NCBI GenBank assembly: GCA_016219025.1
Contig: JACRCM010000066.1
Span: forward strand, 1 to 39,987
Length of the DNA: 39,987 bases
Source: Deltaproteobacteria bacterium
GTDB taxonomy: Bacteria > Desulfobacterota > GWC2-55-46
Reading direction: 5' to 3'
Within the stretch, counting starts at the first letter, position 1. Each line of letters starts with the position of its first letter. The position numbers and the translations under genes were made by a program. A model generated the notes under the pieces. The model did no database searches. It was not told the origin of the DNA and worked only from the letters and a program-made list of their open reading frames with translations. Below, one piece after another: positions 13,234 through 28,951 of the stretch.

Positions 13234-14280
13234 TCATATCATATTCACTATCTCGGCGGCTATCTTGTCGAGCGGCGCGACCTTGTCGGCCAGCCCGGCC
13301 TCGACTACCGCCTTGGGCATCCCGTATACCGTGCAGGACTCCTCGTTCTGGGCTATGGTCTTGCCCCCGGTCTCCTTTATCGCCCTCATCCCCTCAAGGC
13401 CGTCGTGCCCCATGCCCGTCAATATGACGCCCATGGCCCTGCCCGAAAAGCTCTCTGCGACCGACGTCATGGCTATATCAACCGACGGCTTGTAGAGCGA
13501 ATTGAACGGGTCGTTGCTTATCTCCACCTGAAAGTCCGTTACCCCGCGCCGCCTTATCCGGGTCTGCGTGCCGCCAGGCGTTAGGAATACCCGCCCCGGA
13601 GTCACCTTTTCGCCGTCCTCGGCCTCCTTCACGGGTATCTTGCACAGACTGTTGAGCCTCTCGGCGAAGGCGCCGGTAAACGCCTTGGGCATGTGAACGG
13701 CCACGAGGAACGGCGTGCCGATGTCTCCGGGCAGGTGCGAGAGCACCTCCTGAATCGCGCGCGGCCCGCCCGTGGAGGCGCCTATGGCTACAAAGCCTAT
13801 CTTCTGAGTGACGTGCCCGGACGGCGTTGAAAGCGGCGGCTCCGGCCTCCTGTAGGCGCGCAGTCCGTGGAGCCTGTTGGCCTTCCTGCCGAGCGCCTTT
13901 ATCTTGGCGATAAGCTCGTCCTGAATCTTGAGCATATCGAGCGCCGAGGTCACGAGGTTCTTAGAGATATAGTCCGCGGCGCCCTTGTCCAGGGCCTCGA
14001 ACGTCGCGTGCGCGCCCTCGGTGGTGAGCGAGCTTACCATGAGTATGGGCGTGGGGAACTTCTCCATGATGACCCCGGTCGCCTCAAGGCCGTTCATCCG
14101 GGGCATCTCCACGTCCATCGTAATCACGTCCGGCTGAAGAGACGCCGCAAGCTCCACGCCCTCAGCCCCGTCGCGGCCGGAGCCTATCACCTCGATCTCC
14201 GGGTCGGTCTCCAGCATCTGCCGTATGATCCGCCTCATGAAGGCGGAATCATCCACGACCAATACCCTTAGCTTTGACAC
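13234..14280 (-). CDS. cheB: Chemotaxis methylesterase/deamidase CheB
   Basis: The 348-residue protein joins a receiver domain (residues 1-120; phospho-acceptor Asp56 in VITMDVEMP) to a CheB esterase domain. The catalytic serine is in GASTGGPRA, the histidine in VAVHMPKAFT and the aspartate in LTGMGHDGLEG. It removes methyl groups from MCP glutamates for adaptation and opposes the CheR encoded upstream. The start is GTG, preceded by GGGAGG. Length and motifs are normal for the family. A heptamer hairpin fills the gap to cheA. Confidence 0.95.
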   Translation of the reverse strand: MSKLRVLVVDDSAFMRRIIRQMLETDPEIEVIGSGRDGAEGVELAASLQPDVITMDVEMPRMNGLEATGVIMEKFPTPILMVSSLTTEGAHATFEALDKGAADYISKNLVTSALDMLKIQDELIAKIKALGRKANRLHGLRAYRRPEPPLSTPSGHVTQKIGFVAIGASTGGPRAIQEVLSHLPGDIGTPFLVAVHMPKAFTGAFAERLNSLCKIPVKEAEDGEKVTPGRVFLTPGGTQTRIRRRGVTDFQVEISNDPFNSLYKPSVDIAMTSVAESFSGRAMGVILTGMGHDGLEGMRAIKETGGKTIAQNEESCTVYGMPKAVVEAGLADKVAPLDKIAAEIVNMI

Positions 14281-14418: not shown

Positions 14419-16176
14419 TCATGCCGGCTCCCTGTTCAGGGTTTCAAGCAGCCCGGCCACGTCGAGTATCAAGATGACGTTGCCGTCGCCTGTTATGCAC
14501 GCCCCGGCGATCCCCTCGGTGCCCTTGAGATACTCGCCCATCGACTTCATGACGATCTCCTCCTGGCCGTGCAGCTTATCCACGAGCAGGCCGAACGACC
14601 GCTCGCCGACCCCGGTGATTACGATGTATTTCCAATCGGACGAGGCGGCCCCGGACGGGCGGTCCACGAGCGACTCAAGCCTTATGATGGGATAGACCTT
14701 CTCCCTTATGTGTATGACCTCCTTGCCGCGCACGGTCTTTATCTCGGAACCGGTCACCCTGATGTTCTCTATGACCGTCGAAAGCGGGATGCCGTAGACC
14801 TCTCCGGCGGCCTCCACCGTAAGCGCCTGAATGATGGCGAGCGTAAGCGGCAGGCGGAAGGTTATCCTCGTGCCCTTGCCGATCTCGGAGTCGATGTTTA
14901 TAACGCCGTTGATCCTCGTGATGTTCGTCTTTACCACGTCCATGCCGACGCCGCGCCCGGAGATATTGGAGACCTCCTTGGCCGTTGAAAAGCCCGGCAT
15001 GAATATGAGGTTCAGACATTCCTTGTGCGACAGCGCATCCGCGTCCTCCCTGGCGGCAAGCCCCTTGTCAACCGCGGCCTGCCTGATGACGTTGGGGTCC
15101 ATGCCCCTGCCGTCGTCCGATACCGACACGATTATGTGTCTGCCTTCCTGATATGCGCCGAGCTTTACGGCCCCGGCCCTCGGCTTGCCCGCCGCCTCCC
15201 TCGCATCCGGGGGTTCGAGGCCGTGGTCAACGGCGTTCCTTATGAGATGGACGAGCGGGTCGCCGATCTCCTCGATGACTGTCTTATCCACCTCGGTCTC
15301 TTCACCGCTTACGGTCAGGTCTATTTCCTTATTGTTGTGCCTCGCAAGGTCGCGCACCATGCGCGGAAATTTATTGAAGACCTTGGCGATGGGCTGCATC
15401 CGCATCTTCATTATAGCGAGCTGAAGGTCGGTCGTGACGAGGTCGAGCTGTCCTATAGCCTCTTCCATCTGGCCGGTAAGCTCGGACTCCGAGTAGTTCT
15501 CGTTCATCTTGGTCCCGAGGCGCATGAGCCTATTTCTGGAAAGGACCAGTTCTCCCGCAAGGTTCAAGACCGCGTCGAGCCTGTCGATGTCGACCCGGAT
15601 GCTCTGTTCCTTGTCCTTTGCCTGCGGCGCGTCCTCGGGCCTGGCCTCCCGCGGGGCAGCGGACTCCGCCGGCTCAACAGGGCGCGGCTCTTCTTTTGGA
15701 ATTGGAGCGGGAGCCGCCGGTATTACCGGCGCCGGTATCTCGTCAGGCGACGGTACGGAGGGCGCGGCGGACTTGGGCGCGGCGCCGCCCAGTATGTCAT
15801 GGAGCGAGCTTATGACGTGCTCGACGTTTTCCTGCCTTCCGCTCTTGTCCTTTATGTTCCTGAGGATCTTCTTGATAAGGTCTATGGCGTGAAGGAGGGC
15901 GTCCATTATCACGGGGGTGACGGTCATCTCCCCCTTTCTGAGCTTGTTGAGCACGTCCTCCGCGGCGTGCGTCGCCTCGACCATCTGCGTAAAGCCGAGG
16001 AACCCGGCGGCGCCCTTGATGGTATGCACCGACCTGAAGATGTCGTTCAAGAGCTTCGTGTCGCCGGGGTTCTTTTCGAGGCCGACGAATTTCTGGTCGA
16101 GCGCCTCCAGGGACTCGGACGCCTCGGCGACAAAATCATTTATTATGTCGTCCATCTCGTTGGATGAAAATGACAT
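14419..16176 (-). CDS. cheA: Chemotaxis histidine kinase CheA
   Basis: The 585-residue kinase has an N-terminal HPt domain with the phospho-accepting His51 in SVHTIKGAAGFLG. A Pro/Ala-rich linker covers about 135-190, a P3 dimerisation helix pair follows, then an ATPase domain (HLIRNAVDHGLEPP, DDGRGMDP, GRGVGMDVV). A C-terminal CheW-like regulatory domain (about 450-580) ends the protein. I see no clear P2 CheY-binding domain between HPt and P3; the linker there is low complexity. It phosphorylates CheY and CheB. ATG at 16176 is chosen because GGGAG lies five bases upstream; a TTG start four codons earlier would bury that site. Confidence 0.95.
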   Translation of the reverse strand: MSFSSNEMDDIINDFVAEASESLEALDQKFVGLEKNPGDTKLLNDIFRSVHTIKGAAGFLGFTQMVEATHAAEDVLNKLRKGEMTVTPVIMDALLHAIDLIKKILRNIKDKSGRQENVEHVISSLHDILGGAAPKSAAPSVPSPDEIPAPVIPAAPAPIPKEEPRPVEPAESAAPREARPEDAPQAKDKEQSIRVDIDRLDAVLNLAGELVLSRNRLMRLGTKMNENYSESELTGQMEEAIGQLDLVTTDLQLAIMKMRMQPIAKVFNKFPRMVRDLARHNNKEIDLTVSGEETEVDKTVIEEIGDPLVHLIRNAVDHGLEPPDAREAAGKPRAGAVKLGAYQEGRHIIVSVSDDGRGMDPNVIRQAAVDKGLAAREDADALSHKECLNLIFMPGFSTAKEVSNISGRGVGMDVVKTNITRINGVINIDSEIGKGTRITFRLPLTLAIIQALTVEAAGEVYGIPLSTVIENIRVTGSEIKTVRGKEVIHIREKVYPIIRLESLVDRPSGAASSDWKYIVITGVGERSFGLLVDKLHGQEEIVMKSMGEYLKGTEGIAGACITGDGNVILILDVAGLLETLNREPA

Positions 16177-16190
16177 GCAAGCTCCCAAAG

Positions 16191-16262
16191 GGTTATCGGT
16201 TATCCGTTATCAGTTACCGGCAGGATGCGCTTCACGATAACCTATAACTGATGACCGATAAC
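16191..16262. repeat. GGTTATC heptamer hairpin, 4 + 4 units, between cheZ and cheA
   Basis: This is the clearest member of the family. Left arm units are GGTTATC, GGTTATC, CGTTATC and AGTTACC (16191-16218). Right arm units are CGATAAC, CTATAAC, TGATGAC and CGATAAC (16235-16262). The arms are separated by 16 bp, all units are exactly 7 bp, and the arms are imperfectly complementary. The element fills nearly the whole gap between the two genes. Confidence 0.85.
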
Positions 16263-16265
16263 TGC

Positions 16266-16871
16266 CTACGCCCCAAGTTCCTTCAATATCTTGTCGACCA
16301 CGTCCTGATTCAGCCTCATGGGCTCGGCGGCGTGCGTCTCTTTGAGTTCGTTGAGCATCTCTTTTTTTTCTTCTTTTTTGATGCTGTCCGTAAAATCGAA
16401 GGTTAGCGCGAGTTCGAGGAGTTTGGACTCGATTATCGAGAGGCTGGCTATGACCTTTTTGAGCTTCTGCCCGGTAAGGTCCTGGAAGGACAGATTGGTG
16501 AATATCTCCATCAGGTCCCTCTTCTGCCGGGTGTTTATCCAGTCGAGCTGGACGAGCGCCTCGGACGCCTTCGACCTCTCGGGGTCCGGTATCCCGGCCA
16601 CCCAGCCTGCGAGGGCCTTGATGAGATACTGCGCCTTTTCCTGCTCGAGCATCATGGATTCGAGGAGCGTGATGATGTTGTTGGCCGCGTGTTCGATCTC
16701 GCCGGCCACGGCGGTTATCTGTCTCGACGCCTCCGGAAACTTCTCGGAGCCTATCTTTACGGTGGATTGCAGGCTGTCGAGCCCGTTGCGGGTCTTGTCG
16801 ACGAACCTCACCAGCAAGGAGAGCTCGCCCTTTATCCTCTGCAATGCGTCATTCCAGTTGTTGTCGGCCAT
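16266..16871 (-). CDS. cheZ: CheY-P phosphatase CheZ
   Basis: The 201-residue, almost entirely helical protein has the CheZ catalytic motif FQDLTGQKLKK. This holds the Asp that orients CheY and the Gln that positions the attacking water. The C-terminal helix LNQDVVDKILKELGA matches the CheY-binding tail. CheZ accelerates CheY-P decay and so ends the motor signal. It sits directly between cheY and cheA. GGAG precedes the ATG. The core motif is intact; the rest is divergent from the enterobacterial protein, as is normal outside gammaproteobacteria. Confidence 0.88.
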   Translation of the reverse strand: MADNNWNDALQRIKGELSLLVRFVDKTRNGLDSLQSTVKIGSEKFPEASRQITAVAGEIEHAANNIITLLESMMLEQEKAQYLIKALAGWVAGIPDPERSKASEALVQLDWINTRQKRDLMEIFTNLSFQDLTGQKLKKVIASLSIIESKLLELALTFDFTDSIKKEEKKEMLNELKETHAAEPMRLNQDVVDKILKELGA

Positions 16872-16922
16872 GTCCGTGTCTCCTTTTTATATAACGCGCG
16901 CGCCGCGATATTTTCAGCCGCC

Positions 16923-17327
16923 CTATTTGGACGCGGCCTTGACCTTGGCGAGGATGAGATCTATCCTCTCCTTGAGCACCGCGGCCGTGAACGGCTTTAC
17001 GATGTAATTATTGACCCCGGCCTGCACCGCGTTTATGACGTTCTCCTTCGCGGCCTCGGCCGTTACCATGAGGACGGGCATCGTCCTGATGGACGCCTCG
17101 GCGTCCTGCCTGATGGCCGTGAGGAGTTCGATCCCGGACATGTTGGGCATGTTCCAGTCGGTTATTACGAAGTCGAACCTGCCGCCTTTGAGTTTTTGAA
17201 GCGCGACGTTGCCATCCTCGGCCTCCTCGACGTTATGATAGCCTATCTCCAGGAGGATGTTCTTTATGATCCTCCTCATGGTCGAGAAGTCATCGACGAC
17301 CAATATCCTCATGTTTTGATCGAACAT
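16923..17327 (-). CDS. cheY: Chemotaxis response regulator CheY
   Basis: The 134-residue single receiver domain has the acidic pair Asp12/Asp13, the phospho-acceptor Asp57 in [12 protein letters not shown], a Thr in MVTAEA and Lys in VKPFTAA. DWNMPNM and the [12 protein letters not shown] start closely resemble motor-binding CheY proteins. Phosphorylated CheY binds FliM and FliN, both encoded in this cluster, to change flagellar rotation. AGGAGG precedes the ATG. It stands immediately before cheZ, the expected phosphatase partner. Confidence 0.94.
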
Positions 17328-17404
17328 TATAATGGCCTCCTTTAACCCGTAACAGGCAACCGGATTATGCCCGCATGCCTTTCATATAACGCATTCTACA
17401 GCGT

Positions 17405-17767
17405 TTACAATAACTTTTCAATCTCATAAAGGAGCCGCTGCGGCGAAAACGGTTTTGTGAGATACGCCGTGACCCCGGCGTCGAACCCCATCTTCCTGTC
17501 GGCGTCCCCGGACTCGGTCGTGACCATGATTATCGGAAGCTCCCTGTAGACCTCCTGCCCGCGCAGGCTCCTTGAGAATTCAAGGCCGTCCATCTGCGGC
17601 ATATTGAGGTCGGTCACCACGAGGTCCACCGGATTCTCGGCCATGACCTCAAGCGCCTCTAGCCCGTTGGAGGCCGCCAATATCTTATAGCCCCGCTCCC
17701 TGACGATATACGACAGGAGTTTGCGCGTGGTGTCGCAGTCGTCAACTATCAATATTCTTTTCTCCAT
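17405..17767 (-). CDS. Second CheY-like receiver protein
   Basis: The 120-residue single receiver domain has Asp9/Asp10, phospho-acceptor Asp53 in VVTDLNMPQMDG, Thr in MVTTES and Lys in LTKPFSP. It differs clearly from the neighbouring CheY: it has DLNMPQM rather than DWNMPNM and lacks the CheY-like N-terminus. It may be a phosphate sink, an adaptation regulator or a partner of CheR. ATG at 17767 is chosen because AGGAGGGG precedes it; the longer reading frame upstream overlaps cheR and lacks family similarity. Confidence 0.85.
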   Translation of the reverse strand: MEKRILIVDDCDTTRKLLSYIVRERGYKILAASNGLEALEVMAENPVDLVVTDLNMPQMDGLEFSRSLRGQEVYRELPIIMVTTESGDADRKMGFDAGVTAYLTKPFSPQRLLYEIEKLL

Positions 17768-17852
17768 CCATCCCCTCCTGCTCCTCGTCAGGCGGTTTGC
17801 CTTCGGCAAATCAGCCTGCGCCTGCGCATGTCCGCGACCGTCTTCGTAACCG

Positions 17853-18713
17853 CTATGATTTCTGATACACCACCGAACGCTCGATGGACACCGGCCTGAA
17901 GAGCCTTGTGATGTTGTGCAGCGACTCGGAGAACCCCACGAGCAGGTATCCGCCCTTGACGAGGCTGTCATAGAGGTGGCTGCATACCTTCTTCTTCGAG
18001 GCCTCGTCGAAGTAGATGAGCACGTTGCGGCAGAAGACCACGTCCATGCCCCTCACCGCCCTTGTCTCCGCCGTCTCAAAGAGGTTGATGCTCCTGTACT
18101 TGACGACCTCCTGCACCCGGCCGTTCACCATGAAATTGTCACCGTCAGGGACGAAATATTTGCGGAGATAGACCTCGGGGGTATTGCGGAGCGAATACCT
18201 GTCATACCGGGCGGATTGCGCGGTCTTGAGCACCACGTCGCTCAAGTCGCTGCCGATGATCTCTATGGTGATGCCCATCTTACAGATGAGCGGCTCCTCC
18301 ATGAGCATCATGGCGAGGGTATACGGTTCCTCGCCGGTCGAACACGCGGCGCTCCAGATGCGGATGTGCTTGCCGCCGGAGGCGAGCTTGGCCTCGATAA
18401 GGCGCGGTATTACCCCGCCCTTGAACACGTCGAGCTGCACGGGGTCGCGGAAAAAGGACGTCTCGTTCGTGACGACGGAATTGAGGAGGTGCCTGAATTC
18501 GGCCTCGCGCGCCGGGTCGTAGGTCAGAAAATAATAGTAGTCCTCGAAGGTCTTGAGGTTGCGCTCCTCGAGCCTTCTCATCAGCCTGGTCTCCAGGAGA
18601 TACTTCTTCGTCTCCGCGAACGCGATCCCGCTCCTCGCGTATATGACGTCGCGCAGAAAGCGGAAGGTGTCGTTGGAGAGTTTGGGCTTGCTGTTGAGGC
18701 CGAGCGTCAGCAT
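17853..18713 (-). CDS. cheR: Chemotaxis methyltransferase CheR
   Basis: The 286-residue S-adenosylmethionine-dependent enzyme methylates glutamates of MCPs. A helical N-terminal domain (FRFLRDVIYARSGIAF, KYLLETRLMRRL) precedes the SAM-binding Rossmann domain with WSAACSTGEEPYTLAM. DVVFCRNVLIYFDE and the terminal GGYLLVGFSESL are also typical. Its ATG overlaps the stop of the HEAT-repeat gene by 7 bp, so the two are translationally coupled. It pairs functionally with the CheB encoded downstream. Confidence 0.95.
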   Translation of the reverse strand: MLTLGLNSKPKLSNDTFRFLRDVIYARSGIAFAETKKYLLETRLMRRLEERNLKTFEDYYYFLTYDPAREAEFRHLLNSVVTNETSFFRDPVQLDVFKGGVIPRLIEAKLASGGKHIRIWSAACSTGEEPYTLAMMLMEEPLICKMGITIEIIGSDLSDVVLKTAQSARYDRYSLRNTPEVYLRKYFVPDGDNFMVNGRVQEVVKYRSINLFETAETRAVRGMDVVFCRNVLIYFDEASKKKVCSHLYDSLVKGGYLLVGFSESLHNITRLFRPVSIERSVVYQKS

Positions 18714-20647
18714 CTCAATATCCCTATTGCCGCCTCGGCGGCGGCCCTGACGTTTTGATCGGGGTGATCGAGATACCGCTCCAGCACCGGCACGGCCTTC
18801 ATCGAGCCGATGGACGCGAGGGCGCGGGCCGCCGCGGCCTTTACCGGGGGCTCGTCGCCGATGAGGAGTTCCGTTATAGCGGCCTCCGCCTCGGAGGCGC
18901 GCATCTCGCCCAGGAGGAGCGCGGCGTTATACCTCACCCAGAGATTCCCGTCCTTTAGCGCGCCCATGAGCGCCAGCCTTATCTTATCGCCCGACCACCC
19001 GCCGAGCGCCTTCATTACCGAGAGCTTGACCTCGTCGTCGCCGTCCTTGAGGCCGGCTATGACCGCGTCCGCGGCGTCCGGGATGCCTATCCTCGCAAGG
19101 GCGTTGTATACGGCCTTTCGCACGCCGCCGCTCTTGTCGGCGGCCGCGGCCCGTAGACACGCGACCGCCTCCTCGTCCCCTATGAGGCCGAGCCCGCGCG
19201 CCGACATCTCCCGCAACTGTTCGTTCGGGCCGCAGAGGAGCGCATAGAACCCGCGCTTTACGGCGTCGGAGGGTATGGACGCGAGCACGTCCGTTATCTC
19301 CTCCATGACGTCCCTGTAGACCTCGGCGCGGAGCGACTCAAAGAGCGGCGTGACCGCCCCTTCGCCCGCAAGGGACGCCAGCGCCCTCGCGGCTATCTTC
19401 CTGGCGTGGCCGTCCCGGCTGTGCAGGGATTTGGCCAGCACCTCGATCGACCCTATGGAGCCTATCGACTCAAGGGCTGAGACCACATCGCGGAGGTCCT
19501 GTTTTCCGGCCGTCTCCATGAGGTCTTCGAGGACCGGCACGGCCTCGGCGGATTTCATGGCGCCCATGGCCCTTACGGCGATCCTGAAATTCTTACCGCC
19601 GCGCTTGAGCTCCCCGGCGAGTACCGGCATGACGGGACGCGCGGGGTGCAGCGTTCGCATCGCCATTGATATAGAGACAATGGCGTCGACGATGACCGTC
19701 TCTTCATCTTCGTTGATTTCCTTGACGGAGTTGAGGAAACCGAAGACCTTCGGGAGTCCCTCCGGCGTCTTGAGGAGCCCGAGGCCGCGCATGGCCTCTA
19801 TCTTCACCGGCCTCTCGCACTCGCCCATCGCCTTGCCGAAAAAATCGAAATAGACCCGCCTGAACTCGTCCGAGGGCTTGAAGTCGGACGCCGGGGAGAA
19901 CGCCTTTTCAAGGAGCTCGACGACCGCGCCCACGCCGCTCAGGACGCCGCTTCTTACCAGCGGTTTGAGTTTGAGGAGGATCCTGGCGGAATCAGCCGGC
20001 CCCGCGAACTTGCTCACGGCGTCGACCGCCGCCTCGCGCGCAAGCCCGGAGTCCCGCTCTATGATTTCAAGGAGCCTGGGCAGCGATGCCCTGTCCTGCA
20101 GATGCCCCAGCCCTTCTATAGCCGAGAATCTCACCCACTCCTCCCTGTCGCCGAGCGCCTCAAGAAGGACCGCCGCCGAGTCCGGCGCCTTTATCCTGCC
20201 GAGGCAGACCGCGACCGAGGCGCGGACGTTGGGGTTAGCGTGATGGAGGAGCCCCATGAGCATCGACACGGCCCGCGCCTCCTTCATACCCGCGAGGATG
20301 TCGACGGCGAACTTCACCACGTCGTCGTCAGGGTCGTGGAGGAGCACGGATATCGCCGGGAGTATCACTGAGCCGAGCTGCTGGAGCACCTCTATGGCGA
20401 TATTGCGGAGCGCAGGCTCGGAAGAGCGCAGGAGCGGCGCGACGCACACGGCGACGGCCTCCCCGCCGATGGCCACGAGAGCGTTGAGCGCGGCCTCCTT
20501 CACCCCGGCGTCCGGGTCGCGCAGCACCTCCACGAGGCCGGGTATGGACTCCCTGTCCTTCCGTTCCCCGATGGCCTCGCACGCCGACCTTCGCAGCTCT
20601 GGTTCCGCCGAATGGAGATTCGCCATGACCGCGTCTTTGCCGTTCAT
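18707..20647 (-). CDS. HEAT-repeat protein of the chemotaxis operon
   Basis: The 646-residue soluble protein consists almost wholly of HEAT/PBS-lyase-type repeats of about 31 residues, as in LRDPDAGVKEAALNALVAIG and LGDREEWVRFSAIEGLGHL. They recur from residue 10 to the C-terminus (NVRAAAEAAIGIL), with a less regular stretch at about 230-330. Such solenoids are protein-protein scaffolds; no catalytic motif is visible. ATG at 20647 follows a GAGGCGG sequence and is preferred to one 24 bp upstream. It lies between fliA and cheR and overlaps cheR, so a scaffold or adaptor role in chemotaxis signalling is plausible but not shown. Confidence 0.82.
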   Translation of the reverse strand: MNGKDAVMANLHSAEPELRRSACEAIGERKDRESIPGLVEVLRDPDAGVKEAALNALVAIGGEAVAVCVAPLLRSSEPALRNIAIEVLQQLGSVILPAISVLLHDPDDDVVKFAVDILAGMKEARAVSMLMGLLHHANPNVRASVAVCLGRIKAPDSAAVLLEALGDREEWVRFSAIEGLGHLQDRASLPRLLEIIERDSGLAREAAVDAVSKFAGPADSARILLKLKPLVRSGVLSGVGAVVELLEKAFSPASDFKPSDEFRRVYFDFFGKAMGECERPVKIEAMRGLGLLKTPEGLPKVFGFLNSVKEINEDEETVIVDAIVSISMAMRTLHPARPVMPVLAGELKRGGKNFRIAVRAMGAMKSAEAVPVLEDLMETAGKQDLRDVVSALESIGSIGSIEVLAKSLHSRDGHARKIAARALASLAGEGAVTPLFESLRAEVYRDVMEEITDVLASIPSDAVKRGFYALLCGPNEQLREMSARGLGLIGDEEAVACLRAAAADKSGGVRKAVYNALARIGIPDAADAVIAGLKDGDDEVKLSVMKALGGWSGDKIRLALMGALKDGNLWVRYNAALLLGEMRASEAEAAITELLIGDEPPVKAAAARALASIGSMKAVPVLERYLDHPDQNVRAAAEAAIGILRC

Positions 20648-20754
20648 ATCGCCGCCTCTCGCATCTTTCATCTTGTTGTCACGCCCGTTGCCGCTTATTT
20701 AAACCGCTTATTGTTTATCGGATGAATGCGAAAATTCTTGAAGGCCGTGTCCCG

Positions 20755-21486
20755 TCACTCCGCCATAAATCCCTTGAGCCGGGCCTTGAGCCTGTGCATG
20801 GTCTGGCTGTGCAGTTGACAGACCCGCGACTCCGTAATCTCCATGACCTTGCCTATCTCCTTGAGCGTAAGCTCGTCGTAGTAATAAAGCGCGATTATGA
20901 GCTTTTCCTTCTCAGGCAGGCCGGCCACCGCCTCGGAGACGGTCTTTTTAAGTTCCATGAGTTTGGCCGCCGCGACCGGGTCCGCGCCGTTGGGGTCTTT
21001 GATGCAGTCGAGTATGTCCATGCCTTCATCGCTGCCTGCGACGCCCATGTCCTCGAGGTTCAACACGCCCAGGGACGCGACCTCGCTCAGCATGGAGTGC
21101 AGCTCTTCCGTGCTTATATGGAGCGCCTTGGCCACCTCCTCGGCCTCGGCCGGCCTGCCGGTGCGCCGTTCCACCTCGCCGTATGCGCGTTCGAGGTTGT
21201 TGGACTTGTCCCGCATGGACCTCGTCATCCAGTCCATGCTCCTGAGCTCGTCCATTATAGCGCCGCGCACCCTGATGGAGGCGTATGTGTTGAACTGGAC
21301 GCCCCTTCCAGCATCGAACCGCTCCAGCGCCTCCATGAGGCCGATCATGCCCGCGCCGATGAGGTCGTTCACGTCCACGTGCGGAGGCAGGTTCACGGCC
21401 ACCTGGTAAGCGATGATCTTCACCAGGTGCATGTGGTCGTTCAAGAGCTTCTCTCTGTCTATCCGCGCCGTCTCGCTTGTTTTCAT
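20755..21486 (-). CDS. fliA: Flagellar sigma-28 factor FliA
   Basis: The 243-residue sigma factor has region 2 (NDLIGAGMIGLMEALERFD, FNTYASIRVRGAIMDELR), region 3 (TGRPAEAEEVAKALHIS) and region 4 with a helix-turn-helix (LTLKEIGKVMEITESRVCQLH). The sequence MDELRSMDWMTRSMR is characteristic of FliA/WhiG-type sigma factors. It would read the sigma-28 promoter found upstream of flgM. ATG at 21486 is preferred to the much longer frame, which runs into flhG. GGAAGG is close to the start. The 20-bp gap to flhG indicates one transcript. Confidence 0.94.
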   Translation of the reverse strand: MKTSETARIDREKLLNDHMHLVKIIAYQVAVNLPPHVDVNDLIGAGMIGLMEALERFDAGRGVQFNTYASIRVRGAIMDELRSMDWMTRSMRDKSNNLERAYGEVERRTGRPAEAEEVAKALHISTEELHSMLSEVASLGVLNLEDMGVAGSDEGMDILDCIKDPNGADPVAAAKLMELKKTVSEAVAGLPEKEKLIIALYYYDELTLKEIGKVMEITESRVCQLHSQTMHRLKARLKGFMAE

Positions 21487-21506
21487 GCCTTCCGGGTTAC
21501 GGGCTG

Positions 21507-22373
21507 CTAATATCCCTTGTTCACGACGTTTCGCCAGAAGAGCTGCATCCCGCCCTTGATGCCGGTCGGCGGCGCGTGTTCGAGCGCTGCTGCAGCGACC
21601 TCGCGGAAGCACGCGCTTGCCCTGGAGTCGGGGAAGAGTTCCATGACCGCCTTCTGCCTGGCCACGGCCTTAGGCACGCATTCGTCCTGGAGGACGCATC
21701 CGAGATAATCTATCGAGACGTTGAGGAACCTGTCCGCGGCCCCGCATATATTGCGATAGACGGCGAGGCCGTGTTTTTTCGTCTTCGCGCAGTTTACGAT
21801 GAGCTTGAACGACCGTTCCCCGTGGCGTCCGAGGAGCACCTTCATCAAGGCGTAGGCGTCGGTAATGGCCGTCGGTTCCGGCGTTACAACGATGATTATC
21901 TCGCGGGAGGCGGCGTTGAAGAAGAGCACGTTGCCGGATATCCCGGCGGCCGTGTCTATGAGCATGAGGTCGAACGCGCCTTCCGAGGCGGCGTAGGACT
22001 CAAGGTGGGAGATGACGGCGAGCCGCTCCCCGGCCCCGAGGTCGGTAAGCTCGCAGACCCCGGAGCTTGCGGGGAGTATCTTTATGCCCGCCGGCCCGTC
22101 GACCACTACGTCCGACATGGCCTTCTCGCCCCGGAGCACGTGCCCTACGTTGTATTGCGGGGCCAGTCCGAGGAGCACGTCGATGTTCCCGAGGCCGAGG
22201 TCGGCGTCGAGCACCAGACACCTCTTGCCCGCCCTGGCGAAGGCTATGGCCATGTTGACGACGGCGTTAGTCTTGCCGACGCCGCCCTTGCCGCTGGTAA
22301 CCGAGATGACCCTCACCTGCGCCTGATCGCCGCCGCGGGCCGGAGGAGAATTTTCGTTGGATGCGTCGTTCAT
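21507..22373 (-). CDS. flhG: MinD/ParA-family ATPase FlhG (FleN), shortened N-terminus
   Basis: The 288-residue P-loop ATPase has the deviant Walker A motif SGKGGVGKTN and DADLGLGNIDVLLG. It also has LIDTAAGISGNV and the VTPEPTAITDAYALMK stretch typical of FlhG. FlhG controls flagellar number and placement with the SRP-type GTPase FlhF. Normally a conserved N-terminal DQAxxLR helix of about 20 residues stimulates FlhF. Here DQAQ runs straight into the first beta strand (VRVISVTSG), so that helix is lost, and flhF is absent from the adjacent position. A heptamer repeat starts five bases before the ATG, with no clear ribosome binding site. Confidence 0.88.
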   Translation of the reverse strand: MNDASNENSPPARGGDQAQVRVISVTSGKGGVGKTNAVVNMAIAFARAGKRCLVLDADLGLGNIDVLLGLAPQYNVGHVLRGEKAMSDVVVDGPAGIKILPASSGVCELTDLGAGERLAVISHLESYAASEGAFDLMLIDTAAGISGNVLFFNAASREIIIVVTPEPTAITDAYALMKVLLGRHGERSFKLIVNCAKTKKHGLAVYRNICGAADRFLNVSIDYLGCVLQDECVPKAVARQKAVMELFPDSRASACFREVAAAALEHAPPTGIKGGMQLFWRNVVNKGY

Positions 22374-22477: not shown

Positions 22478-24571
22478 TTAAAGGCTTACTACCTTGAGCG
22501 TCTTTACTCCGGCGTTGGGGACGATTTCATTATACGACAAGACGGCTAGCGCGGGCAACGCATTTTCAACGAGCCTGCGGACAAACCTTCTGGCCTCAGC
22601 TGAGACGAGCACGACCGGCTTTACGTCCCTGGACGCCGCGGCGTCGAGCGCGTCCTTTATCCCGCCGACGATGCGCTGGGAGAGCGCGGGCTCCATGGCT
22701 ATGAGGATGCCGCCGGGCGTGGGGCGCGCCGAGGACGTTATGGCGTCCTCTATCTCCCGCGTAAGCGCTATGGCGTGGATGACCCCGGCCTTGTCCTGAT
22801 GGTCCCTCGAAATCCTCCGCGCAAGCGACGCCCTGACGCATTCCGTCAAAACCCAGGCGTCGAAAGGCTCATCCTTGCCCTCCGGCGGCTCGGCAAGGGT
22901 CTCCAGTATGGTCTGAAGGTCGCGTATCGACTCGCGCTCGCGCAGGAGATTCCTCAACACCTTCTGTATCCCGCCGAGTCCGGCGCGCAAGACCGCCTCC
23001 GCCGCAAGCGCCGGGTGCGTCCTCGCGGCGGCGTTCATCAGGTCCTGGGTCTCCTGACGCCCAAGGAGTTCATGCGCGTGACCCTTTATCATCTCCGTTA
23101 CGTGCGTGGTAATGGCCGCGGCGTGGCTTACGACGGTATACCCGTGCGCGCGGGCGCGCTCCCCGTCCGCGTCCTTCACCCATACGGACGGCAGTCCGAA
23201 GGCCGGGTCAACGGCCGGTATGCCCTCTATGTTCAGCGTGCCTCCCCTCCTCGCGTTGCCCGGGTCGACGACAAGCGAATGGCCGGCGAGGAGGCGTCCA
23301 CGCGCGGCCTCCACGCCGCGCAGATGGAATACGTATTCGGTCGGCCCAAGCCTGAGGTTGTCCCTTATGCGTATGGAGGGCACGGATATCCCTGTCTCCT
23401 CGGCGAACTGCCCCCTTATGGCCCTGAGCCTCTCAAGGAGTTCCCCCGCGCCCTCGCCCGCGTCAGCGTCTATGAGCGGTATGAGGCCGTAGCCTACGTC
23501 AAGGCCGAGCGCGTCCACCGGCGCTATCCCGGCGTCGGGCTGGGGAGCGGCCACGGCGGAGACCAACGGAGCGGCGTCCAGCGCGCGCGTCTTCGCGCCA
23601 AGGTAGACGAGATAGCCCATCCCGGCGGTGGCCGCGCCGAGCGCGAAGAACGCGAAGTGGGCGAACCCGGGGATGAGGCCGAGGGCGAACATTACCGCGG
23701 AGGCTATGAATATCGGCTTGTGCTGGATTGTGAACTGTCTGCCGATGGACTCGCCGAGGCCGTAGTCGGCGTTCACGTGGGAGACGGCAAGACCCGCGGC
23801 GGTGGAGACGATGAGCGCGGGTATCTGCGCCACCAGGCCGTCGCCGATGGTAAGGAGCGTATACGTCCTCGCTGCCTCCGCTATCGGCATCCCGTGCTGG
23901 AAGACGCCTATGATAAGGCCGCCTACGATGTTTATCACGGCTATGAGGATGCAGGCTATCGCGTCACCCCTTACGAACTTGCTCGCCCCGTCCATCGCGC
24001 CGTGGAAATCCGCCTCGCGGCTGACAAGACGCCTCCTCTCCATCGCCTCGGTCCCGTCGATAAGCCCGGCGTTCAAGTCCGCGTCTATCGCAAGCTGCTT
24101 GCCGGGCATGGCGTCGAGCGTGAAGCGCGCCGCCACCTCGGCGATCCTGCCCGCGCCCTTGGTTATCACAACGAAGTTTATTATCACGAGTATCAGGAAG
24201 ACCACGAAACCGACGGCGTAGTTGCCGCCTACGGCGAACGTCCCGAAAGACCTTATCACCTCTCCGGCCGCGCCCGGACCTTCGGAGCCGCGCATGAGTA
24301 TGAGCCTCGTGGACGCGACGTTGAGGCCTAGCCGAAGAAGCGTCGTAAGAAGAAGCACCGCCGGGAACGTGGCGAACTCCAGCGGCCTCCTCACGTATAT
24401 CGCAAGGAATAGGATGACGAGAGAGGCCGTTATGCTGAAGGCAAGGCCGAGGTCGAGGAGAAACGGCGGCACCGGCAGTATCATCAACGCGACTATGGCG
24501 ATGACGCCCGCGGGCAGCGCGAGTTCGTAGCCCCTTCTCATGCTCAGTATGTTTTCCGTCATGTCCGCCAT
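22478..24571 (-). CDS. flhA: Flagellar type III export protein FlhA
   Basis: At 697 residues it is a full-length FlhA. The N-terminal half has about eight transmembrane helices with the highly conserved FHIPEP-family cytoplasmic loop (ARFTLDAMPGKQLAIDADLN, RRRLVSREADFHGAMDGASK). The C-terminal half, from about 345, is the cytoplasmic nonamer-ring domain that docks substrate-chaperone complexes. FlhA uses the proton motive force together with FlhB, FliP, FliQ and FliR, all encoded upstream in the same direction. AGGGAAACGATT precedes the ATG. No truncation or frame problem is seen. Confidence 0.96.
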   Translation of the reverse strand: MADMTENILSMRRGYELALPAGVIAIVALMILPVPPFLLDLGLAFSITASLVILFLAIYVRRPLEFATFPAVLLLTTLLRLGLNVASTRLILMRGSEGPGAAGEVIRSFGTFAVGGNYAVGFVVFLILVIINFVVITKGAGRIAEVAARFTLDAMPGKQLAIDADLNAGLIDGTEAMERRRLVSREADFHGAMDGASKFVRGDAIACILIAVINIVGGLIIGVFQHGMPIAEAARTYTLLTIGDGLVAQIPALIVSTAAGLAVSHVNADYGLGESIGRQFTIQHKPIFIASAVMFALGLIPGFAHFAFFALGAATAGMGYLVYLGAKTRALDAAPLVSAVAAPQPDAGIAPVDALGLDVGYGLIPLIDADAGEGAGELLERLRAIRGQFAEETGISVPSIRIRDNLRLGPTEYVFHLRGVEAARGRLLAGHSLVVDPGNARRGGTLNIEGIPAVDPAFGLPSVWVKDADGERARAHGYTVVSHAAAITTHVTEMIKGHAHELLGRQETQDLMNAAARTHPALAAEAVLRAGLGGIQKVLRNLLRERESIRDLQTILETLAEPPEGKDEPFDAWVLTECVRASLARRISRDHQDKAGVIHAIALTREIEDAITSSARPTPGGILIAMEPALSQRIVGGIKDALDAAASRDVKPVVLVSAEARRFVRRLVENALPALAVLSYNEIVPNAGVKTLKVVSL

Positions 24572-24610: not shown

Positions 24611-25396
24611 TCAGCCATTTTTCCTTCCGCTGACCGCCTCTTGCTGCGCCCTTCTTATGCGCTCGCGCAGGGCCGGGTCGCCCTCTGACTCTCTGAGTTC
24701 GGCCATCAACTCCTCCCTCGTCACGCGCAGGCTCCGCTCGAACGCCCATCTCTCATACGCATAATCGAGCGCGGCTATCGCAAAGAGCGCCCAGAGGCTC
24801 TTCCGCATCATGGCGAAGACCATCGCGCCCATGTATCCCATGACCCCGGCAGGCTCCATGTCCACGAGCGCCGGGAGCGCGCCCCACTCCTGGGCCGCGC
24901 TTGCGTAGACGGCATAGCCGATGACCGCGGCCTTTAATAACGTCTTTGCGGCCGCCGCGCCTGATAAGAGCCTCTTGACGCCGTTGAATGGGTTCAACCT
25001 TCCCGCATCGGGCGCGAGCGCGCCGGGCGCGGCGAGAAACCCGTTTTGCGCCATGTACGAGAGCGCCGCCGCGACCGGCAGCATGACGACGGGCGCGGCA
25101 AGATAGGCAAAGGCGTAAGCCGCGCCCCGCAGAAGCGCCGCGCCGTGGTCTACGGTCATGCCGCCGGGGTTTAACAATGCGATTGCCTTGAAAGACCTCT
25201 GCATCAGACCGGCCGCGCCCATGAGCATCCATGCGCCGGCATAATAAAAGAGGAGCACGCCTGCAAGGGCTACGACAAAGGCGGCAACCTCCCTTGAGAC
25301 CGGAGCCCTGCCCACGCGGCGCGCCCTCTCTCTGCCCTGTTCGCTCGGCGCCTCGGTTCTTTCTCCAGCGTATGACCGCGCGTCTTCAGACGGCAT
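24611..25396 (-). CDS. flhB: Flagellar export protein FlhB lacking the C-terminal autocleavage domain
   Basis: The 261-residue product has the FlhB N-terminal signature (GERTEAPSEQGRERARRVGRAPVSREV reduced to its pattern ERTEAP...SREV). Four hydrophobic segments follow, with the conserved RLNPFNGVKRLLS loop and the cytoplasmic helix leading to ESEGDPALRERIRRAQQE. Normal FlhB proteins are about 350-380 residues; they continue with VPxADVVITNPTH, where they cleave themselves. Here the frame stops at SGRKNG and flhA begins 39 bp later, so the whole cytoplasmic domain is missing. The other two frames of the gap do not encode it. ATG at 25396 overlaps the fliR end by 11 bp. Confidence 0.88.
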   Translation of the reverse strand: MPSEDARSYAGERTEAPSEQGRERARRVGRAPVSREVAAFVVALAGVLLFYYAGAWMLMGAAGLMQRSFKAIALLNPGGMTVDHGAALLRGAAYAFAYLAAPVVMLPVAAALSYMAQNGFLAAPGALAPDAGRLNPFNGVKRLLSGAAAAKTLLKAAVIGYAVYASAAQEWGALPALVDMEPAGVMGYMGAMVFAMMRKSLWALFAIAALDYAYERWAFERSLRVTREELMAELRESEGDPALRERIRRAQQEAVSGRKNG

Positions 25397-26165
25397 GACC
25401 GCCCCCCGTTGCCAAGACAGTGATGCCATCGAACATCCTGTCGAATATCATCGCCAGCGCCGCCTCGAAAGACGAAATGGATAACATTATCATCAACAAC
25501 CCGGCGGCGATGGCGGCCGTGAACATGACGGTAAGGATGTCCAATCCCGGAACGGAGCGCGCGACTATCACGCACGCGGCGTTCACGAAGAGGCTTACGG
25601 CGATTATCGGGGCCGATAGCTTGACGGCTATGATGAAGACCTCTTTTGAAAAGACTATCATGCGCTCCATGAACGCGGGCGCAAGGACGAAGGCGCCCGC
25701 CGGGGCCGCCTCGAAACTCCTCGCAAACGCGCCGATGACCATGAGGTGTCCGTTCATGCTAAGGAAAACGAGCACTGCGAAGACGGTAAAGAACCTCCCT
25801 ACCGGGCTGCGCATCGGAGCGGACGCCGGGTCGTATACGGCCCCGAGCCCAAGGCTCATCTGCGCCGATGCAACCTCTCCGGCGTATTCGACCCCGGCGA
25901 ATACAAGCCTCATGGCGAAGCCGATGGCCGCGCCCGCGACCGCCTCGCACGCGATGGCCGCGACGAATAACGCCGCATCTGTGGAAGCGCCCTCTTTAAC
26001 CAGCGGCGCGATGACTACGGCCAACGCGAACGCAAACCCCAGCCTTATCCGCAAAGGCGTCTCCCCTGCCCCGAAGACCGGCGCGGTCAGGACGAGCGCG
26101 CCCGCCCTGGCGAGGACGAGGAGAAAGACCGCCGGATTGTAATCCATGAATCGGATGAATCCCAT
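25386..26165 (-). CDS. fliR: Flagellar export protein FliR
   Basis: The 259-residue membrane protein has the FliR pattern: FLLVLARAGALVLTAPVFG, PLRIRLGFAFALAVVIAP and GEVASAQMSLGLGAVYDPAS. Long hydrophobic helices follow. FliR combines with FliP5 and FliQ4 in the export gate inside the basal body. ATG at 26165 is chosen because it leaves 8 bp after the fliQ stop codon and matches the usual N-terminus. The earlier frame overlaps fliQ. It ends overlapping flhB, as is common for this gene pair. Confidence 0.93.
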   Translation of the reverse strand: MGFIRFMDYNPAVFLLVLARAGALVLTAPVFGAGETPLRIRLGFAFALAVVIAPLVKEGASTDAALFVAAIACEAVAGAAIGFAMRLVFAGVEYAGEVASAQMSLGLGAVYDPASAPMRSPVGRFFTVFAVLVFLSMNGHLMVIGAFARSFEAAPAGAFVLAPAFMERMIVFSKEVFIIAVKLSAPIIAVSLFVNAACVIVARSVPGLDILTVMFTAAIAAGLLMIMLSISSFEAALAMIFDRMFDGITVLATGGGHAV

Positions 26166-26173
26166 TTGACAGC

Positions 26174-26443
26174 TCACTTTATATAATTCGGCATGTCCAT
26201 GAATATCCGGCTTGCGAACCTCGTCATCACGTCCAGCATCCACGGCAGCGCGAGCAGGAAGACGGCGAAGACCGCCACGAGCTTGGGCACGAACGAGAGC
26301 GTGGCCTCGCGCACCTGCGTCACGGTCTGCAGGACGCCGACGGCGACGGCCGTAACGAACGCCGCGCCGATGAGCGGCATGGCCAACATGAAGGCGGTCT
26401 GCACAGCCTCCTTGCCTATATTTGCTATCGCCTCCGGCGTCAT
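26174..26443 (-). CDS. fliQ: Flagellar export protein FliQ
   Basis: The 89-residue protein has two transmembrane helices. It carries the FliQ signature MTPEAIANIGKEAVQTAFML followed by LIGAAFVTAVAVGVLQTVTQ and EATLSFVPKL. It forms the middle part of the export gate helix. The start at 26443 lies 7 bp after the fliP stop codon. Length and topology are standard. Confidence 0.94.
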   Translation of the reverse strand: MTPEAIANIGKEAVQTAFMLAMPLIGAAFVTAVAVGVLQTVTQVREATLSFVPKLVAVFAVFLLALPWMLDVMTRFASRIFMDMPNYIK

Positions 26444-26450
26444 ATCCGCC

Positions 26451-27209
26451 TCACCCGTTGAAACTACGCACAAGAGAACCCACTATCAGATACCACCCGT
26501 CAACGAGAACGAAGAGCAGGAGCTTGAATGGCAGCGACACGACGGCCGGCGGCATCATCATCATGCCGAGGGACATTAGCACGCTCGCGGCCACCATATC
26601 GATGACCAGAAACGGTATGTATATGAGGAAACCTATCTGGAACGCGGCCCTGAGCTCGCTCGTGACAAAGGCCGGGATGAGCGCGAGCGTGCCCGCGTCC
26701 TCGGGACGCGCGTTGTCCGGGGCCTTGGCAAGCCTCTGGAACATCTCCAATTCCTTGGCCCTCGTGTTCCTGAGCATGAAGGCGCGCAGTGGCGCCATGC
26801 CCTTCGTAAGCGCCGTCCCGGCGTCTATCCGGCCCCGCATGTAAGGGCCAAGCGCGTCTTCGTTCACCTTCGATATGACCGGCGACATGATAAAAAGGGT
26901 CAGAAAGAGAGAAAAACCGGTGATTATCTGGTTCGCGGGCGCGTTCGGGATGCCGATGGCCTGCCTGAGGATGGCGAAGACCACGGCGACCCTGGTGAAC
27001 GAGGTCATCAGGAGCACGAGGCCGGGCGTGACGGACAAGAGGGTAACGAGGAGGATTATCTCCACCAACGCCGCCTCTCCATGCCGCGTGCCTGTGCCGA
27101 GCGTCACCGAGAGATTCAAATCCCCGGACGCGGACGCGGCCTGCGCCGCGGCGCCTGAGGCCAGGAGCGCAAAGGCCGCAAGGATTATAATGGCAAGCCG
27201 TCTTTTCAT
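26451..27209 (-). CDS. fliP: Flagellar export protein FliP
   Basis: The 252-residue protein has an N-terminal cleavable signal peptide (MKRRLAIIILAAFALLASGAAAQA), as in many FliP proteins. The family core follows: TPGLVLLMTSFTRVAVVFAI, LRQAIGIPNAPANQIITGFS, AFVTSELRAAFQIGFLIYIP and SLGMMMMPPAVVSLPFKLLL. FliP is the main pore subunit of the export gate. ATG at 27209 is preferred because the signal peptide begins there; the longer frame overlaps fliO. No strong ribosome binding site is seen, so coupling to fliO is likely. Confidence 0.95.
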   Translation of the reverse strand: MKRRLAIIILAAFALLASGAAAQAASASGDLNLSVTLGTGTRHGEAALVEIILLVTLLSVTPGLVLLMTSFTRVAVVFAILRQAIGIPNAPANQIITGFSLFLTLFIMSPVISKVNEDALGPYMRGRIDAGTALTKGMAPLRAFMLRNTRAKELEMFQRLAKAPDNARPEDAGTLALIPAFVTSELRAAFQIGFLIYIPFLVIDMVAASVLMSLGMMMMPPAVVSLPFKLLLFVLVDGWYLIVGSLVRSFNG

Positions 27210-27222
27210 GTTGGGAAGACCG

Positions 27223-27570
27223 TTAAACCCGTTTGAACAGCCCGAACAACCCGGCGCACCTGCCGTTGCCGCGCCTTCTGAGTTCATCCGCCGCCTCCGG
27301 CCTTTCCACCTTCATCACCATATTCACCGAGGCCGGGGTGACGCCGAGCACGATGACCTCTCCGGCCACGTCGACAACGGTGAGACTCTTTTTATGCTCA
27401 AGCTGGAATACCCGCAAGACCTTGATGGGTTCGTCCGCGTCCATGCGGCGCAGCCCGGCCCTTTTCATAAGACGCTTCAGGCCGTAGAGAAATGCGCCCA
27501 GCATGACCAGCACGAGCGCCAATGAGAAGAACGCCTTGAGGAGCAGGTAGACGTAAGAATCGGTCATCAT
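27223..27570 (-). CDS. fliO: Flagellar export-gate assembly protein FliO
   Basis: The 115-residue protein has a single N-terminal transmembrane helix (about 8-30). A basic cytoplasmic part follows with IKVLRVFQLEHKKSLTVVDVAGEVIVLGV, whose pattern (a short beta-rich segment after the helix) is typical of FliO/FliZ. FliO helps FliP assemble and is not in the final gate. The start codon overlaps the fliN stop by 4 bp. Sequence conservation is low in this family; position between fliN and fliP makes the call secure. Confidence 0.85.
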   Translation of the reverse strand: MMTDSYVYLLLKAFFSLALVLVMLGAFLYGLKRLMKRAGLRRMDADEPIKVLRVFQLEHKKSLTVVDVAGEVIVLGVTPASVNMVMKVERPEAADELRRRGNGRCAGLFGLFKRV

Positions 27571-27914
27571 TTGAGCCTCTGGGCGCGTTCTGACGCGCTT
27601 ACGACCTCGGTGAGCCTGACGCCGAACCGCTCGTTGACGACAACCGCCTCTCCCTTTGCCACGAGCTTGCCGTTGACAAACACCTCCAAAGGCTCGCCCA
27701 CGGGTTTATCGAGCTCGACTACCGAATGTCTAGCGAGCCTGAGAAATTCGCGCACCGTCATCTTCGCGCGTCCTATCTCGACCGAGACCGCCACAGGAAT
27801 GTCGAGCACCATGTCGAGGTTGGGGGTTGCATCCTCGCGCCCGGCATCCGCCGCGTCCAGCCTCGCCGTAAGACCAACGGAGGCAATCGGATTATTGAGA
27901 TTGTCTTCTGACAT
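27567..27914 (-). CDS. fliN: Flagellar motor switch protein FliN
   Basis: The 115-residue protein has a variable N-terminus and a C-terminal SpoA domain: LDMVLDIPVAVSVEIGRAKM, LARHSVVELDKPVGEPLEVF and LVAKGEAVVVNERFGVRLTEV. FliN forms the base of the C-ring, binds CheY-P and docks the export ATPase complex. It overlaps fliO by 4 bp and begins 2 bp after the fliM stop codon. Confidence 0.95.
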   Translation of the reverse strand: MSEDNLNNPIASVGLTARLDAADAGREDATPNLDMVLDIPVAVSVEIGRAKMTVREFLRLARHSVVELDKPVGEPLEVFVNGKLVAKGEAVVVNERFGVRLTEVVSASERAQRLK

Positions 27915-27916
27915 TT

Positions 27917-28888
27917 TCAGATGCCTTGCGCGCCGATGCCGGTTATCCTAACGGCGTAACGGCCTCCTACCGCGCCCGGGGCGGCCAAGAAGACCGGCTG
28001 CCCGCCGGCCGTCACGGGAAGCGGTTCCCCGGCTTTTTTGTCTATTTCGATGATGTCGCCCGGCCTGAGTCCGAGAAGGTCTCCAGCGCTTATAAGCGCG
28101 GTTCCCAACTCGGCGGTCAGCACGAGCGGGGTTTCCATGAGGAGCCCGGTCAAGCGCCCAGTCCAGCGCCGCCTCTCCGTCTCATCGCATAAGTTCACCA
28201 GCCTGTGCCGCATGGCGGCAATGGCATGGAGCGGGATAGCGATCTGAAATCTCCCTGTCCCGCCGGCCGCCTCGACCCTGAAAGAAGAGAGGTGCATGGA
28301 CTCCGGCCCGATGCCGCCGGGGTTAAGACCCCACCGCTCGAAACGGACGCAAGAGAAGGCCGCGCCGGTTGCGCCCTTCCACGCCTCGCTTATTACATCT
28401 AAGAGCGTAGATGCCGCCCTCTCTATTACCGGGCGCGTGGCCGGGGTCAAGACGAAGTTGCCGCGCAAGCCGCCTGCGGTCTCGCCGCCGAAGTAAAGCT
28501 CGACGATAATCTCCGCAAGGGCGGCGTCGATTATAAGCGCGCCTGTACCCTCAAGCGGGGTCATGGCAAAGACGCAGACGACCGCCGGGTTTCGGGATTC
28601 CCCGGCCAATTCCGCATATCCGGCAACCGATACGCCCTCCGGCGCGACGGCAACGGCCCTGCCTGCAAACACGCCGAGACGCGGCGCGGCGGCGCGGCCA
28701 ATCCCTTCGTTTATCCGATTGATCCCCGGAAGCCTTAGCTGGTCGATCCTCTCCATGAAAGAAAGGTCGTAAAGACTGTAATCGCGTTCGACCGCATCAG
28801 CAGAGTCCGGGTCGTCACCCTGCGGCAAGACGCCGTCCCGAATGCCGCAGAGGAGCATATCTATCTCTTGTTTTGAAAGTAACGCCAT
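27917..28888 (-). CDS. fliM: Flagellar motor switch protein FliM
   Basis: The 323-residue protein starts with the CheY-binding motif LLSKQEIDMLLCGI. A CheC-like middle domain (about 50-235) and a C-terminal SpoA domain follow (VLTAELGTALISAGDLLGLRPGDII, VFLAAPGAVGGRYAVRITGI). The middle domain is more divergent than in well-studied FliM proteins, with the early DLSFMERIDQLRLPGINRINE stretch kept only in pattern. FliM passes the CheY-P signal to the rotor. ATG at 28888 fits the family N-terminus. It is the first gene behind the sigma-54 promoter. Confidence 0.9.
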   Translation of the reverse strand: MALLSKQEIDMLLCGIRDGVLPQGDDPDSADAVERDYSLYDLSFMERIDQLRLPGINRINEGIGRAAAPRLGVFAGRAVAVAPEGVSVAGYAELAGESRNPAVVCVFAMTPLEGTGALIIDAALAEIIVELYFGGETAGGLRGNFVLTPATRPVIERAASTLLDVISEAWKGATGAAFSCVRFERWGLNPGGIGPESMHLSSFRVEAAGGTGRFQIAIPLHAIAAMRHRLVNLCDETERRRWTGRLTGLLMETPLVLTAELGTALISAGDLLGLRPGDIIEIDKKAGEPLPVTAGGQPVFLAAPGAVGGRYAVRITGIGAQGI

Positions 28889-28935
28889 CCGGTTCCCGTT
28901 TATGCTAAGGACATAAACCACACAACTATAGACAT

Positions 28936-28951
28936 AGCAATACCCGTGCCA
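28936..28951 (-). promoter_or_regulatory. Sigma-54 promoter of the fliM operon
   Basis: On the - strand TGGCACGGGTATTGCT matches the consensus TGGCACG-N4-TTGCW completely, with the obligatory 10 bp between GG and GC. It lies 48 bp upstream of the fliM start. Transcription needs an activator of the NtrC/FlrC type, which is not encoded in this window. The remainder of the gap 28889-29212 shows no gene or other feature I can name. Confidence 0.9.

Follow-up and report, generated by a model that had tools for sequence, protein, structure and literature searches.

How is an FlhB that stops directly ahead of its NPTH domain to be understood when it sits in the gene order fliR-flhB-flhA? The question is raised by a 39,987-nucleotide contig of a deltaproteobacterial assembly (GCA_016219025.1, JACRCM010000066.1), the whole of which is called the window here. 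A preliminary description of the window, made from the letters alone, proposed that FlhB lacks its autocleaving domain, that flhA starts 39 bp beyond the flhB stop codon and that the neighbouring flagellar genes all look intact. It went on to suggest that the missing half is encoded elsewhere as a stand-alone FlhX/FlhB2-like protein, or that the flagellar system is decaying or uses another switch.

The truncation itself is confirmed. The flhB product is 261 amino acids long and ends in ...ESEGDPALRERIRRAQQEAVSGRKNG followed by the stop codon, the flhA start at 24571 leaves the stated 39 bp between the two genes, and the Pfam Bac_export_2 family matches positions 1-243 of 335 only (180 bits). 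The longest flhB frame starts at 25429, and the start is placed at the ATG at 25396 (MPSEDARS), which matches the start in the sister species (MPSEEVYG). The N-terminal membrane domain of the FlhB/YscU family is present; the window protein is an FlhB ortholog by descent without the defining NPTH and C-terminal part. Residues are numbered on the 383-residue FlhB of PDB 36hu, which we take to be that of Salmonella and in which NPTH occupies 269-272. On this scale the alignment puts the end of FlhB at about residue 258 in the window and about 257 in the sister species; the stop codon of the window gene falls at about 259. A six-frame search of the window's genome (G000; 2.18 Mb, 170 contigs, 86.8% complete) found no second FlhB match at E <= 0.001; loosening the threshold to E <= 1 added only matches at chance level, none of them in the FlhB C-terminal part. 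In both species the autocleaving NPTH motif and the C-terminal cytoplasmic domain are absent from the gene and from the genome.

It is clear that the truncation is common to two species. The sister genome (G001, 94% complete), the sole other genome of the genus compared, carries an FlhB that is also 261 amino acids long, 55% identical to that of the window and ending in RIRKAQAEAIGRGGR. The preliminary description had named relatives with a full-length flhB and no separate domain as the outcome that would speak against it. Other genera of the family that carry flhB do encode the whole protein, but the sister species shares the truncation; several other family members have lost flhB entirely. 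Among 63 genomes of the class, a membrane half without the C-terminal domain is clear for the two genomes of this genus; the partial matches in G017 (positions 1-266) and G020 (positions 1-40) may reflect contig ends, and in G022 and G055 the two halves occupy adjacent frames. Judged by E-values alone, none of the other matches listed for 394 genomes across the phylum falls in the range of the window FlhB.

The claim that the neighbouring genes are intact stands only in part. FliM is strongly diverged, and flhF, fliL, flgE, flgD and fliK, which lie beside flhA or fliM in relatives, are missing. These losses were followed through both genomes with a joined query made of pieces of thirteen flagellar proteins and FlgM from the complete relative G006, with four control genomes. 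Every piece was found in the four controls, except FliS in G002. In the two genomes of the genus the query found no FlgB, FliE, FlgD, FliK, FliL, FlhF, MotA, MotB, FlgH, FlgI, FlgA, FliS or FliD; its matches there were limited to FlgM and FtsY/Ffh-like GTPases. The FlhF-like matches reached 33-47 bits, whereas true FlhF in the controls scores 130-228; they were taken as FtsY/Ffh-type GTPases. Family searches of both genomes found no member of Flg_bbr_C (the family of FlgC, FlgE, FlgF, FlgG and FlgK), no flagellin (Flagellin_N), no FlgL and no FliG_C. FliK, which the preliminary description had marked for a search, is not found in either species: the FliK domain search gave nothing above the family cut-off, and a weak 29-position match in the sister (E 0.004) was rejected, the FliK piece of the joined query having matched neither genome.

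In sum of genes, both genomes lack the rod, hook, FliK, hook-associated, filament, P/L-ring, stator, FliL and FlhF genes, all of which relatives possess. Neither genome encodes the rod, hook and filament proteins of a bacterial flagellum, nor the torque-generating set of MotA, MotB and the FliG C-terminal domain. Compared with G006, the joints are clean: motB-motA are gone between cheW and cheB, flhF between flhA and flhG, the flgF-to-flgJ genes ahead of flgM, fliK-flgD-flgE-fliL before fliM and flgB-flgC-fliE before fliF. Nothing resembling a pseudogene of a lost gene was seen there. Incompleteness does not explain the absence of about 20 genes, in several clusters, from both assemblies.

What has been kept is the base (Table 1). 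A second contig in each genome carries fliF, a short fliG, fliH, fliI (which retains its motifs) and fliJ behind a response-regulator gene, so that the export base is represented by FlhA, the FlhB membrane part, FliP/Q/R, FliH/I/J, FliF, FliG, FliM and FliN; in the sister, whose gene order is that of the window, the contig corresponding to the window ends before fliM. FlhA retains the equivalents of Salmonella D456, F459 and T490, the docking pocket for late chaperone-cargo complexes, and the MDGASKFVRGD stretch. Of the known late export substrates, FlgM alone was found. Family membership and gene order mark every part found as flagellar, and in its tree FlhA falls within the proteins of flagellated relatives.

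Table 1. Features of the window and the sister flhB
Feature	Position	Strand	Basis or remark
flgM	8682..8996	(-)	anti-sigma-28 factor
sigma-28-type site TAAAGTTT-N11-GCCGATAT	9069..9095	(-)	upstream of flgM; best-scoring site of the window; consensus only
MCP, cheW, cheB	10257..14280	(-)	no motB-motA between cheW and cheB
cheA, cheZ, cheY, response regulator, cheR	14419..18713	(-)	
HEAT-repeat protein	18707..20671	(-)	heads the che gene row
weak sigma-28-type site	20715..20741	(-)	upstream of the HEAT-cheR row; clearer in sister species and relatives
fliA (sigma-28)	20755..21612	(-)	true start probably within the frame
flhG-like MinD/ParA ATPase	21507..22373	(-)	Pfam, synteny; no flhF between flhG and flhA
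flhA	22478..24571	(-)	full length; Pfam, alignment
flhB	24611..25396	(-)	membrane part only, 261 aa; ORF, Pfam, alignment to sister
fliR	25386..26243	(-)	Pfam; start codon uncertain
fliQ	26174..26473	(-)	Pfam; start codon uncertain
fliP	26451..27287	(-)	Pfam; start codon uncertain
fliO	27223..27570	(-)	Pfam
fliN	27567..27914	(-)	Pfam
fliM	27917..28921	(-)	Pfam, alignment; 29-32% identical to relatives
sigma-54-type site TGGCACGGGTATTGC	28937..28951	(-)	upstream of the fliM-to-flhA row; consensus match only
sister flhB	L032 9684-10469		same truncation as window

Several of the retained proteins are themselves reduced. FliG consists of its N and middle domains only in both genomes. FliF is 416 residues long in the window's genome and 359 in the sister, as opposed to 522-528 in relatives; on the domain layout of PMC8092281 it retains RBM1, RBM2 and the extreme C-terminal segment, with RBM3 and the collar missing partly in the former and wholly in the latter. 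FliM keeps its N-terminal motif LLSKQEIDMLL, with GGDG changed to GGET. By what is established about the flagellum, every lost domain (the switch of FlhB, the motor domain of FliG, and part or all of the S-ring and collar of FliF) faced a lost partner. The loss can be read domain by domain: contacts with rod, hook, FliK and stator go, and exporter parts stay.

Promoter-like sites accompany the retained genes. TGGCACGGGTATTGC is the only perfect sigma-54-type match in the window, and contigs C122 and C88 have a single perfect match each, upstream of fliF; by consensus alone, then, such a site lies upstream of fliF in both genomes and of fliM in the window. Near-matches to the sigma-54-type site occur no more often than in shuffled sequence. 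For sigma-28, where the sites are likewise matches to a consensus, the top site in each reduced cluster is found upstream of flgM (in the sister at G001 C75:57352-57378). The same holds for G006 and G007, and G003 has a site upstream of flgM too. Genome-wide, the sigma-28 pattern has 9 and 8 matches in the two genomes, and the reversed pattern 2 and 1. Besides flgM, the sister has a match at the HEAT-cheR row. No wider sigma-28 regulon can be drawn for the two genomes, most genome-wide matches other than flgM lying in or before unrelated genes. Both species also carry a sigma-28-type site at a distance of 8 bp from the start of an ispD-like gene, on its upstream side (G000:C88:10769-10795 and G001:C17:14300-14327).

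What might such a gate do? An answer is suggested by Salmonella strains without rod-hook genes and without Fluke, in which the mutations that allow export of FlgM-Bla to the periplasm lie in the C-terminal domain of FlhB (PMC13344023). One of these is a stop at FlhB residue 258, and the truncation in the window falls within a residue of it. Deleting residues 270-383 has the same effect, does not require FliK and abolishes export of the early substrate FlgE-Bla (PMC13344023). The window's genus shares these features of the genotype: its FlhB stops short of the cleavage domain, the rod-hook genes are missing, and FlgM and sigma-28 are present. Because FlgM and FliA are kept and the truncation matches the Salmonella mutant, the simplest reading is a late-locked gate that exports FlgM.

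Spelled out, the genus would have stripped its flagellum down to an inner-membrane base made of the gate (FliP/Q/R, the FlhB membrane part and FlhA), the ATPase complex FliH/I/J, a shortened FliF MS ring and a cytoplasmic ring of FliG N/middle domains, FliM and FliN. There would be nothing left to switch, since rod, hook and FliK are absent from both genomes. We propose that FlhB dropped its C-terminal domain, the docking site of rod and hook subunits and the target of FliK, because these substrates and FliK have disappeared. Without it the gate would stay in late mode and send late-type cargo to the periplasm; FlgM, the one known late cargo left, would be exported and sigma-28 freed, and other late-type cargo may travel the same way. 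We put the chance that the gate is locked in this mode, with FlgM export freeing sigma-28, at about one in two, export and cargo being read from the genotype. The freed FliA might then transcribe flgM and the chemosensory genes. A purpose can be suggested more tentatively, at roughly one chance in three: an appendage-free regulatory exporter, in which sigma-54 leads to the gate, the gate to FlgM export and this to free sigma-28, may have been kept as a chemosensory signalling circuit. This account draws on the genes and domains of two species, the common truncation, constraint and promoter-like sites, all of them features of sequence. Some observations count against the late-locked gate: flagellated relatives show stronger constraint, FliF and FliG have diverged strongly, the Salmonella FlhB without this domain performed well only when components were overproduced, and the sigma-28 sites before the che genes, though clear in the sister, are weak in the window. 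Moreover, if FlgM is exported with FliA as its chaperone, this alone leaves the retention of the FlhA pocket for other late chaperones without an explanation.

Perhaps the base genes are instead relics in slow decay, left without an export function after the flagellum was lost. Rates of change in protein sequence bear on this. Synonymous differences between the two genomes are high (pS 0.46-0.74), and pN/pS is 0.33-0.36 for FlhA, FliP and FliI, 0.41-0.49 for FliQ, FliR and FlhB and 0.64-0.65 for FliF and FliG. In flagellated pairs the same genes give 0.14-0.39, so the values for the gate, FliF and FliG genes are about 1.5 to 3 times as high, which speaks for decay. FliF has been trimmed to differing extents in the two species, FliM and FliG are strongly diverged and the loss of flhB in other family members fits as well. 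However, all frames are open in both species at this divergence. In 300 runs of a neutral simulation (substitutions only, at an assumed 0.5 changes per site) the frames of FlhA, FliF, FliG and FliI stayed open in none, those of FlhB and FliR in one each and that of FliP in three, FliG being represented by its longest frame instead of the likely gene; the longer frames, that is, would have closed. The gene row is common to both species, the promoter-like sites are retained and the joints are free of visible pseudogenes. The pattern is one of protein-level constraint, relaxed relative to flagellated relatives; for the chemotaxis genes constraint is about equal to that in relatives or stronger. 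Intact frames, constraint and sigma-54/sigma-28-type sites argue for a working system, and slow decay is considered unlikely. The earlier alternative of decay or another switch is nearer the mark than a split FlhB, but neither half of it fits fully: the substrates and partners of the switch are gone, and the remainder is under constraint.

Another idea is that the base serves a different machine, either type IV pili or a CheY-responsive C-ring hub, and that export through the gate is not the point. The precedent is the non-flagellated Lysobacter enzymogenes OH11, whose retained flagellar type III apparatus exports foreign flagellin and affects twitching (PMC7277350, PMC9927559); its FlhA, FlhB, FliI and FliR mutants lose twitching (PMC7277350). 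PilT is encoded in both genomes of the window's genus, and the chemotaxis genes and FliM N-terminal motif are retained. However, PilT is equally present in relatives, which removes any special link, and the genus retains the full set of five gate proteins together with FliO and the ATPase complex; among the gate proteins is FliP, which is dispensable for Lysobacter twitching (PMC7277350). This makes a different machine improbable, if worth keeping in mind. The likeness to OH11 is that gate and ATPase genes remain after those for filament, hook junction, rod and stator have gone. A difference is that Lysobacter is reported to be without fliG and fliM, whereas the window's genus keeps both, reduced or diverged. 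The FlhB truncation, the trimming of FliF and FliG and the kept FlgM/FliA are described here for the window's genus.

Could the gate export a new cargo, with FlgM and FliA kept merely as ordinary regulators? The FlhA pocket residues are kept though FliS and FliD are absent, and two conserved genes follow fliJ in both species (L039 14714-15819 and L040 14290-15446). Yet no candidate cargo or chaperone was identified, and the two genes look from their sequences like a membrane protein and a lipoprotein rather than export cargo, which leaves this reading with a slim chance. Nearby in the window, an orphan ORF (29213-29635, (-), 140 amino acids) with a likely signal peptide lies upstream of fliM, in the place that fliL/flgE have in relatives. 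Pfam places neither the neighbouring orphan ORFs nor the genes after fliJ in any family above cut-off.

The split FlhB of the preliminary description is largely refuted: stand-alone C-terminal ORFs do occur in other families of the class, where the identical search readily detects them, but it finds none in the window's genome (87% complete) or the sister (94%), and the domain's substrates and FliK are gone too. An assembly or sequencing artefact is likewise largely refuted, because a second species with a 55% identical FlhB carries the same truncation: both assemblies are fragmented and from metagenomes, yet they agree on truncation point, gene set and order while FlhB differs by 45%, and the genes that enclose the roughly 20 missing ones in G006 adjoin on intact contigs.

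The export system is best read as inherited from a flagellated ancestor, since the FlhA tree places the pair, as a fully supported clade on a long stem (0.6), among the flagellated members of its own family; the fork joining the family is weakly supported (80/78). An FlhB tree was set aside for placement, the pair lying there on a still longer stem with odd composition. CheZ (window 16266-16871, (-)) is 87% identical between the two species and 42-52% identical to relatives, whose own CheZ proteins are 55-65% identical among themselves, which could reflect a shift on the stem followed by strong constraint.

How does the late-locked gate compare with known systems? The Salmonella strains resemble it in lacking rod and hook, in an FlhB that ends before the cleavage domain, in FlgM with sigma-28 and in not needing FliK (PMC13344023). 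They were made by selection and deletion and need Fluke to be absent, and FlhB without its C-terminal domain worked well only with overproduced components (PMC13344023), whereas in the genus the combination is natural, predates the split of the two species and comes with further trimming of FliF and FliG. Partial flagellar gene sets are known in non-motile genomes (ISME J 2025, PMC12199754), and FliI, FlhA and FliF orthologs in Chlamydia pneumoniae (PMC2830194); both share with the genus flagellar base proteins without a filament. The genus differs in having a whole export base, a rotor remnant, a control circuit and a chemotaxis set, and in domain-level trimming that matches the lost partners. 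Its FliF resembles the injectisome SctJ only in being without RBM3. FlhX/FlhB2 stand-alone proteins concern the same FlhB domain, but they add or replace it, whereas here it is absent. What is new is the coordinated domain loss, a natural FlhB truncation common to two species and the kept sigma-54/FlgM/sigma-28 circuit.

The genus offers a natural counterpart of a laboratory genotype used for working out the flagellar export switch, and a definite, testable case for the question of what use half a flagellar motor is (raised in PMC12199754). It also accords with the idea that the C-terminal domain of FlhB is there for early substrates and their lock, not for the gate itself.

Some variants of flhB elsewhere deserve mention. 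Stand-alone C-terminal-like ORFs of the FlhX/FlhB2 kind were seen in other families of the class and not in the window's (G049:C97:8763, G058:C41:5732, G031:C14:17257, G053:C295:10472, G055:C83:21728, G050:C27:1913 and G054:C29:5086); that of G031 adjoins a second Flg_hook ORF. The adjacent-frame flhB genes (L033, G055:C51; L034, G022:C17) could reflect a frameshift, a sequencing error or a natural split. In G315 and G401 (family f65) the FlhB E-values, about 1e-86 and 1e-88, are weaker than in other full-length cases, and the proteins may be divergent or shortened. G012, of the window's own family, has two full-length flhB genes (G012:C21:3129-4145 and G012:C12:103389-104405).
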